From assembly GCF_963678975.1 (NCBI RefSeq), contig NC_089278.1, positions 14,861,959 through 14,925,958 on the forward strand: a stretch of 64,000 bases of DNA, written 5' to 3'. The notes below the pieces were generated by a model. The model was given only the letters and a program-made list of their open reading frames with translations. It did no database searches and was not told the origin of the DNA. Positions 32,201 to 33,753 of the stretch are shown in pieces (position 1 is the first letter of the stretch; each line of letters opens with the position of its first letter). Both the position numbers and the translations under genes were made by a program. Source of the stretch: Dysidea avara. Taxonomy: Eukaryota; Porifera; Demospongiae; Dictyoceratida; Dysideidae.

Positions 32201-33753
32201 ACATACATGTGTATTATACATGAGTTTGTTAGGGATACATACTGTATATTTATCAAAATTGACTACTATCTTAGAGTGCCACAACTTTCAGTGTGGATAG
32301 CAGTGAACCTACACTGTTAGTAGTCAGCATATGCAATACTTCAAAATGCTGCATGCCTTCGGCTTCAGTATAATGCAACTCCTTCCTATGGGCACATCTT
32401 CCAGCACTATCTTCCACATAAAAATGCTATGTTTTTTTTCTAAGGTGGCATTTTAAAATCAAATCACAGTCTATAGTAAACAAACGAGGCTTTTTAGTGA
32501 AACATCAATTGGTAGTTTGTTTCAGTCACTGACCTGGCACTTTGAGAATTTGTACTGTTATTAGTTGTTGTTCTCATTGTCAGGAGTGACCAGTGATCCT
32601 CACTTCCTAGTGGAGACACTATCTGGTGATTGGCTGTGTTATACCTTAAAAGGAATGGAGGGAGAAGTGTACAATTTGTTATCTGATGTAGAGTATTCTA
32701 TTAATGGACTGTTGATTGGAACAGTGTTCAAAGGATCTGACCAAACCTACTTTGGTTCCATCTCGATCAGTCACCAGAGTTGTGAAACTGGAGTGGTGAC
32801 TAAGTTCCTGATCACTGCAGATAATGGAGTAGCTATTATAGGTCTGTTTAATTTTAAATACTAGTAGGGGATACAGCACTGAAATAATAATGTAGAGATT
32901 AAATGTGGCTTGATGTGTAAAACAAGATGTAATACTTTTTATTGCTGTTGTCTAGCATTATGTAAATTCCATATCACCAGACACAACTGTTAGGCTATAG
33001 AGAGTAACTAAGCTATCAATGGCAAGCATAACTCATTGAAAATTGAAGTTTGTCATTGTAACTAACCAAGAACTACAACTCTTAGTGAATGTAATGTGGT
33101 CCCCCACAGGTGAGGGTAGTGTGTCATGGAATAACGAGGGCAGCTTTACCACACAAGATGGGACATTTGTGATCACCATGAACCAGACACTAGTACAGAT
33201 CACTAATGTTGTGGGAGACACTGTCCAGTTTGCTGTACTGAGATCACAACTCAACTGTACCAAATATTCCGTCTGTCCTAGGAAGCATTATCTTGGCTTC
33301 TATGTACCCGTCACAGTTGGACTATCCAGCAAGACTCATGGAATGATTGGTATGGACTATGTGTTGTCTATATGTGCGTGTCTGTATATGAGTGGACTTG
33401 CAGCTTTTTTTGTTGTTTTTTTGCATACTATAAATGCAAATGGCGAATCATTGAAATATTACTTCATCACAGTGGCATGCAGTTAATATAGTTATAAAAC
33501 AATGTATAATGTTATAATGTTAGGTCAGTTTCTGAGGCAGCCTACACAAAGTGATGGTGTACACATGTCAGTTGGTGGTAGAAAACTTCCAGTGAAGCCA
33601 TTTGAACGTCTCAATGGCTTGTCGGGTGATTATCAGAAGTGTTGGTCCACTGATGAATATGGGATGAAATTTTTGGATGGCACTGCTGATGACTATCTTG
33701 TCAAGGAATTATTTGATAGTCAGTTTGTGTACTCCAACTACCACTGCAATTAA
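20248..33753 (+). CDS. ITIH-like: ITIH-like protein A (VIT, vWA, ITIH C-terminal domain)
   Basis: Ten exons join in phase: 20248-20388, 20786-20901, 22751-22871, 24562-24725, 28616-28726, 28776-30378, 32032-32185, 32584-32841, 33110-33349, 33524-33753 (TAA), encoding 1045 aa. Order: signal peptide (MKVPTVLVLLVVAVEVAHC), a furin-type REKR ending at residue 55, a six-Tyr/Asp-Asp/SGSG segment (61-75), a Cys-rich linker, a VIT domain (about 127-270), a vWA domain (about 385-575) with MIDAS DVSGS at 394-398, TNFDGAL and TDG, a Pro/Thr-rich linker (exon 7), then SDPHF at 807-811 and the ITIH C-terminal region with HGMIGQF. In vertebrates ITIH heavy chains are secreted and become ester-linked to chondroitin sulfate or hyaluronan through the Asp of DPHF; the same chemistry here is inference. 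Reading past exon 6 into intron 6 would stop after nine codons. Confidence 0.93.
21163..21802. mobile_element. DNA transposon-like element in intron 2 of gene A
   Basis: Left end TGTGACTGGATTTGAAAAAG and right end, reversed, TGTGACCAGATTTTACAAAA share imperfect terminal inverted repeats that continue through CGATCCAAAT. An inverted partial copy lies at 35427-35780. Gene B has the empty site (ATTATAATTATGTATGTG near 44122), so the insertion is younger than the duplication. Confidence 0.82.
23185..23834. mobile_element. DNA transposon-like element in intron 3 of gene A
   Basis: The left end TATATGACCGGATCTGCGAA and the right end GCAGATCCGGTCATATA form 34-bp imperfect terminal inverted repeats ending in GGGACATAATC. 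The 650 bp between the ends show overlapping short open frames on both strands but no transposase motif. It is absent at the matching position of gene B. Confidence 0.83.
24884..25354 (+). repeat. (GT)n microsatellite, 471 bp, intron 4 of gene A
   Basis: Uninterrupted GT/TG over 471 bp. The matching site in gene B (47678-47695) has only a few GT units between the same flanks (GGACTACCA and CAACAGCCACCATTAATG). All long open frames over it are artefacts. Confidence 0.98.
25750..25924. mobile_element. Foldback with 42-bp perfect arms
   Basis: ACGAAGGAATAGGTTGTTCC through AGGAGCCCA at the left is exactly inverted at 25883-25924. The centre holds a smaller hairpin-like GCCAATATTTTGGC. It lies inside an A-only segment of intron 4 running to about 27265. 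Confidence 0.85.
25925..27265. repeat. A-only segment of intron 4, probable nested repeat insertions
   Basis: Gene B jumps from ACCAACTTGT to AAAAATAAAATTTAG at about 48050, while gene A carries these extra 1.3 kb. GGTATGCATAATATGCTTTG and GATAATGAGGTCTTTAAAAT at the left resemble 48558-48615 in gene B, which lies at a different place. A 33-bp direct duplication (CACTGCCATTTCCCAGCTGT, twice) is at 26638-26692. A long run of TTAATTAATTAATTAA closes the segment. Confidence 0.6.
27360..27412 (-). repeat. tRNA-derived SINE-like module, intron 4 of gene A
   Basis: On the minus strand GGAGACTTAGTGGTTGTG looks like the A box region and GGTTCTAATCC is a near-consensus B box. The same module is at 48158-48210 in gene B, so it predates the duplication. 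Confidence 0.6.
27695..27835. mobile_element. Foldback related to the 43645 hairpin
   Basis: CAGACTTTGAAAGACAGG and CAAAGTCTGACCTC flank an inner TAGTAACCCGTAGGCC ... GAGCCTAAGGGTTTCTA hairpin. The core GTGACACC..TGCTCAGGTGCCACTACAG is shared with 43645-43778, and a matching copy lies at 48445-48555 in gene B. Confidence 0.6.
28428..28540 (+). repeat. (CATA)n microsatellite
   Basis: About 28 tetranucleotide units directly upstream of exon 5 of gene A. Gene B has about eight units at 49212-49244, one of them mutated. Confidence 0.97.
31754..31898 (+). repeat. (GT)n microsatellite, intron 6 of gene A
   Basis: 145 bp of pure GT. The matching gene B tract (52896-52957) is about 62 bp. Confidence 0.97.

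Follow-up and report, generated by a model that had tools for sequence, protein, structure and literature searches.

Tandem ITIH-like genes carrying a putative Asp-Pro cleavage motif at the start of a heavy-chain pro-domain

The Asp-Pro-His-Phe (DPHF) motif is present in the vertebrate inter-alpha-inhibitor heavy chains ITIH1, ITIH2 and ITIH3. Vertebrate plasma proteins are described as forming an unusual matrix bond, an ester that joins a protein C-terminus to a glycosaminoglycan: in the heavy chain, the terminal Asp is reported to be linked in this way to GalNAc in bikunin's chondroitin chain (PMC7170535, PMC11325723), and the pro-domains of HC1 and HC2, which are 239 and 244 residues long, are lost on joining that chain (PMC7170535). 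ITIH4 reportedly lacks the conserved cleavage site, and its failure to bind bikunin is attributed to this (PMC2268946).

Asp-Pro-His is also described as the established self-cleavage motif of VWD domains, such as those of mucins, FCGBP and RGM (PMC10880436). Mutants and simulations of FCGBP point to an attack of the Asp side chain on its own backbone carbonyl, aided by the surrounding fold, and cutting of such motifs is reported for the secretory pathway, under mildly acidic or near neutral conditions (PMC10880436). Some VWD domains retain the cut strand through a disulfide. The same work notes GDPH in ITIH3, ITIH5 and ITIH6, within a domain predicted to fold with VWD-like topology (PMC10880436), hence the idea of a VWD-like fold is already published for human ITIH and is not new.

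For ITIH proteins outside vertebrates, in a published VIT/vWFA tree the ITIH-like proteins of animals fall into an extracellular clade (PMC10539598); six terms for sponges, cnidarians or choanoflagellates are all absent from the main text of that paper. A pearl oyster genome paper labels one protein ITIH4, in passages that leave its C-terminus undescribed. DPHF in a non-vertebrate ITIH was not found in our search of mostly open-access literature, and an echinoderm matrix review and a mussel hyaluronan-gene paper made no mention of ITIH.

The window analysed here, a stretch of 64,000 nucleotides, contains a tandem array of at least three ITIH-like genes on the forward strand, made up of gene A, its copy B and a partial third paralogue C (Table 1). 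The exons of A and B were assigned by hand from the genomic sequence alone. All nine introns of each gene have GT...AG ends, and the intron phases are identical between the copies; intron 5, only 49 bases long in A and B alike, counts against the gene model. Between A and B, eight of the ten exons are 94-99% identical, with exon 3 at 93% and the linker exon 7 at 64%, and the introns are 46-88% identical (seven of the nine were aligned, the other two being too long and skipped). The N-terminus is hydrophobic (MKVPTVLVLLVVAVEVAHC), as judged by eye, and may be a signal peptide. Paralogue C shares the A/B layout of a hydrophobic start, REKR and a Ser-Gly peptide. The tblastn support for its exon 2 is weak (E = 0.015 with A, 0.35 with B), and when A and B were used as tblastn queries, no other exon of C turned up before the end of the window.

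Table 1. Coordinates in the window of the three ITIH-like genes and of their main parts
Feature	Position	Strand	Remarks
Gene A, ITIH-like	20248-33753	+	10 exons, 1045 aa; hand-made exon model, open frame, like-structured tandem copy
Gene A, exons 1-5	20248-20388, 20786-20901, 22751-22871, 24562-24725, 28616-28726	+	
Gene A, exons 6-10	28776-30378, 32032-32185, 32584-32841, 33110-33349, 33524-33753	+	stop included
Exon 2 of A	20786-20901	+	furin-like REKR (52-55), DDGSASGSG (67-75)
Exon 6 of A	28776-30378	+	VIT end and VWA domain (Pfam)
Exon 7 of A	32032-32185	+	Pro/Thr/Ser-rich linker, residues 753-804
Exon 8 of A	32584-32841	+	pro-domain start, residues 804-890; AG before, GT after
DPHF in A	32595-32606	+	residues 808-811; predicted self-cleavage Asp808/Pro809
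Exons 9-10 of A	33110-33753	+	remaining pro-domain
Gene B, tandem copy of A	42283-55289	+	10 exons, 1036 aa
Gene B, exons 1-5	42283-42423, 42876-42979, 45526-45646, 47359-47522, 49404-49514	+	
Gene B, exons 6-10	49564-51148, 53082-53238, 53697-53954, 54651-54890, 55060-55289	+	stop included
Exon 2 of B	42876-42979	+	REKR (52-55), DDGSASGSG (63-71)
DPHF in B	53708-53719	+	residues 799-802; exon 8 of B = 53697-53954
Paralogue C, exon 1	57734-57859	+	partial; ends placed by eye
Paralogue C, exon 2	58291-58442	+	partial; ends placed by eye

Several other features were seen in the window. Intron 4 of gene A contains a perfect GT repeat of 471 bases (24884-25354), and no array of score 200 or more was listed in intron 4 of gene B. 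The same intron of A holds an inverted repeat (25757-25931), each arm of which carries GTTGTTCCTACATGGAGTAACAGGAGCCC by eye; it is perhaps a mobile element, and its motif had 0 matches in viral contigs. Downstream of C lies a satellite-like tandem array of related units with periods of 61, 92 and 122 (60677-63065), one piece of which had 0 matches in viral contigs and another 0 in genome contigs. On the minus strand, an exon for the ubiquitin-related modifier Urm1 (Pfam, 4.2e-39) is found at 5613-5984, and open frames at 17-1016 are maybe exons of a cell-surface receptor, one having a weak fibronectin type III match (E = 0.052, below the cut-off) and the other being transmembrane-like by eye. 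Scans for tRNAs and Rfam families gave no matches.

The proteins encoded by A and B are most likely genuine ITIH heavy chains, and by homology probably secreted. Both show the order VIT then VWA, followed by ITI_HC_C, with E-values in Pfam of 7.8e-22, 3.9e-18 and 7.5e-14 for A and 7.5e-22, 1.1e-17 and 3.3e-14 for B. All of these lie above the Pfam cut-offs (VIT, 78 bits in A and 78 in B against 26.5; VWA, 66.7 and 65.2 against 23.8; ITI_HC_C, 52.2 and 53.4 against 27), in agreement with the sequence-only reading, which had called the proteins ITIH-like. The ITI_HC_C match covers profile positions 5-135 of 189, thus stopping short of the profile end, and in A corresponds to residues 842-976, spanning exons 8 to 10. 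MIDAS-like residues are present in the VWA domain of A as DVSGS (394-398), Thr463 and Asp496, the latter two placed by eye in the expected order. The best solved-structure match was that of A residues 128-717 to ITIH4 (9c4f, 9.2e-60), and residues 388-715 matched ITIH1 (6fpy, 9.6e-53); another ITIH1 sequence matched the VIT-VWA part at 1.2e-51. At E up to 1e-10 these three distinct sequences, one ITIH4 and two ITIH1, were the only ones retrieved. The pro-domain alone had 0 matches among solved structures at E up to 10 and matched 0 NCBIfam models at E up to 0.01. Against Pfam at E up to 10, it returned ITI_HC_C only, with VWD absent, in a search whose HMMER filters drop most weak matches. Among relatives sought for the pro-domain, 2 pattern stretches were found in viral contigs and 65 in genome contigs, and tblastn gave 0 relatives.

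DPHF is located at the junction between linker and pro-domain in both copies. The residue numbers (808-811 in A, 799-802 in B) and exon 8 coordinates (32584-32841) that the sequence-only reading had assigned to it were exact, as was its description of the motif as lying after a Pro/Thr-rich linker, at the start of exon 8 and with equal intron phase in A and B. DPHF forms codons five to eight of exon 8, the intron-split codon counted. Exons 8, 9 and 10 each start in phase 1, and together encode the pro-domain from 4 residues before the Asp. In both copies the motif is 34 residues upstream of the ITI_HC_C match and outside the Pfam model, and is therefore independent of the domain assignment. 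The Asp is followed by 237 residues in A and in B, and preceded by a stretch of 70 residues of which 33 (A) or 34 (B) are Pro, Thr or Ser. The linker of A contains no Cys between Cys714 and Asp808, so the pro-domain could leave after a cut; there are 16 Cys before the linker and 6 (A) or 7 (B) in the pro-domain, and a disulfide between one of the former and one of the latter may still hold it. From the composition of gene A, DPHF is expected 0.0026 times per protein; for a stretch of 21 residues placed where the motif should lie relative to the C-terminus, the figure is 5.3e-5. Translation of the whole window in six frames gave DPH at five places, two of which are the A and B motifs. The residue before DPH is Ser here (SDPH), compared to Gly in GDPH.

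Substitutions between A and B were counted by the Nei-Gojobori method, and Fisher tests were run on rounded counts entered by hand. In exon 8, 0 of 198 nonsynonymous sites and 3 of 60 synonymous sites have changed (p = 0.012), and exons 8-10 jointly have 6 nonsynonymous changes at 565 sites versus 8 synonymous at 161 (p = 0.004). For the linker exon 7, 36.5 nonsynonymous changes in 103 sites and 11.5 synonymous changes in 41 were obtained (dN = 0.478, dS = 0.355), and for the whole protein dN was 0.035 and dS 0.078; the comparison of nonsynonymous changes in exon 8 and exon 7 gave p = 1.4e-19. By these counts the linker varies almost freely between the copies, and exon 8 looks constrained as protein, with just 3 changes underlying the latter statement. 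A and B are near-identical paralogues, and selection on the four motif residues themselves is beyond the reach of this comparison. Gene conversion was considered and is unlikely to account by itself for the near identity of exon 8 (98.8% over 258 bases), since intron 7 is just 76.5% identical over 345 aligned bases; intron 8, with 268 bases in one copy versus 696 in the other, aligns poorly (45.8% of 260) and also speaks against it.

We consider it probable that A and B are heavy chains that undergo cleavage, whether or not an ester follows, a reading that overlaps with the cleavage-only explanation discussed below. Weighing against it are the Ser that replaces Gly before DPH, an ITI_HC_C match that stops at profile position 135, and the lack of matches between the pro-domain and solved structures, NCBIfam models or the Pfam VWD profile. 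By homology, the 237-residue pro-domain would fold in the secretory pathway, and once folded would cut its own chain at Asp808-Pro809 in A and Asp799-Pro800 in B, the self-cleaving fold being borrowed here from the work on human ITIH. The mature chain would be left with a C-terminal Asp, carried at the end of a flexible linker. Our own estimate for a cut at Asp-Pro in A and B is that it is likely. In a further step, the new Asp end might be passed to a sugar hydroxyl to give a protein-glycan ester, as in vertebrate inter-alpha-inhibitor. For this ester, which can be inferred only weakly, our estimate is more doubtful than favourable. Conservation of the cleavage is likely from the ITI_HC_C homology, the place of the motif and the 237-residue pro-domain, but calling DPHF a cross-linking motif reaches further than the sequence does: DPHF is a cleavage motif, and its Asp-Pro-His is shared with VWD domains. 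The DPHF observation itself is true and the family reading largely right, and the functional reading was over-extended.

A candidate glycan site is found at the other end of the proteins. In A and B the acidic peptide DDGSASGSG follows REKR in exon 2, and exon 2 of paralogue C encodes DDGSGGSGG after REKR; in all three the Ser-Gly peptide adjoins Tyr residues, with a run of six Tyr in A. This peptide resembles a glycosaminoglycan attachment site, and Tyr sulfation may be possible. The pattern [DE][GA]SG is reported as the attachment motif of the C. elegans chondroitin core proteins (PMC8418075). It is contained in C, with an expectation of 0.07 per 1045 residues under gene A composition, and is absent from the A/B peptide: in A, Ser72 follows an Ala and has Asp four and five residues upstream, and the second Ser-Gly (Ser74) is part of GSG, the Asp residues being at -6 and -7. 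In human chondroitin sites the acidic residues are described as mostly preceding the Ser, and the sites as lying in regions of disorder or low complexity (PMC10424144), and PMC8418075 warns that motifs alone fail to identify proteoglycans. At the DNA level, the Tyr run of A and the Ser-Gly run of C resemble simple repeats, and the peptide may therefore amount to just a flexible linker.

If the peptide did carry a glycan, one chain could represent both halves of inter-alpha-inhibitor, the Ser-Gly glycan taking the role of bikunin and the Asp end that of the heavy chain. A furin-type cut at REKR would then create an acidic Ser-Gly N-terminus with a chondroitin-like chain, and the C-terminal Asp freed at DPHF would form an ester with the glycan on an adjacent molecule. 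The outcome would be a self-assembling protein-glycan-protein network that does without bikunin and perhaps represents inter-alpha-inhibitor in its ancestral form. We regard this arrangement as improbable.

The alternative that survives best, to which we give a little less than an even chance, is that a VWD-like pro-domain is cut at Asp-Pro and the cut serves to stabilize the fold or to free the pro-domain, without transfer to a glycan; the chondroitin ester would then have arisen later, together with bikunin and TSG-6. GDPH cutting in an FCGBP fragment is reported to raise resistance to proteases and heat, in an account of that protein where a glycan link goes unmentioned, and the VWD-like fold predicted around the motif in ITIH3, ITIH5 and ITIH6 fits equally (PMC10880436). 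Glycosaminoglycans are said to be made by Hydra but not by marine sponges (PMC5050403), and this counts against a chondroitin link if the host is a sponge. In a choanoflagellate, mating is reported to be induced by a bacterial chondroitinase, a hint that a substrate resembling chondroitin exists outside animals. The domains reported for a planthopper ITIH4, namely signal peptide, VIT and vWFA, suggest that an ITIH may work without the pro-domain (PMC8951764). Less easily accommodated are the linker without Cys, so that the first strand, unlike that of FCGBP, would have no Cys of its own to hold it, and the exon 2 Ser-Gly peptide of A, B and C, which could take a glycosaminoglycan.

That the Asp-Pro turn is conserved for the sake of folding and left uncut is unlikely, given the exact spacing of the motif to the pro-domain and a pro-domain length near those of HC1 and HC2, which lose theirs. 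The occurrence of SDPH rather than GDPH would suit such a structural role, but ITIH1 also has no Gly before DPH and is nevertheless cut. The GDPH of MUC2 has been reported as uncut in one expression system (PMC10880436). A chance motif or a wrong exon model is hardly credible and was rejected, for although the exons were hand-assigned from genomic sequence only, DPHF is expected 5.3e-5 times at that place, and the two copies have like splice phases, open frames and exons better kept than introns.

The favoured reading of A and B, as heavy chains cut at Asp-Pro, carries a hint about age: the motif in A and B may indicate that at least the cutting step is older than blood plasma. If a cutting site, a pro-domain and a possible glycan site do occur in one chain of a distant animal, the origin of this chemistry becomes testable.

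Among non-vertebrate proteins, the ITIH4-like protein of the planthopper Nilaparvata lugens, a secreted protein, resembles those described here in its VIT and vWFA domains. ITI_HC_C goes unmentioned among its reported domains, and some ITIH outside vertebrates may thus lack the pro-domain (PMC8951764). With the GDPH-type VWD domains of FCGBP, MUC2, MUC5AC, RGM and BMPER, A and B have in common Asp-Pro-His at the domain start, and differ from them in having no Pfam VWD match, no linker Cys before the cut and Ser in place of Gly. Among solved structures the VIT and VWA domains match ITIH4 best; ITIH4 is reported to lack the cleavage site (PMC2268946), whereas A and B have it. Compared to ITIH1, ITIH2 and ITIH3 (HC1-HC3), A and B are distinguished by their tandem arrangement with the start of a third gene, by the long Pro/Thr linker and by the acidic Ser-Gly peptide after REKR, and neither a bikunin gene nor one for TSG-6 came to notice in the window. 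They are alike in the VIT domain, in the VWA domain with DxSxS, in a pro-domain of similar length and in the Asp-Pro-His that precedes it.
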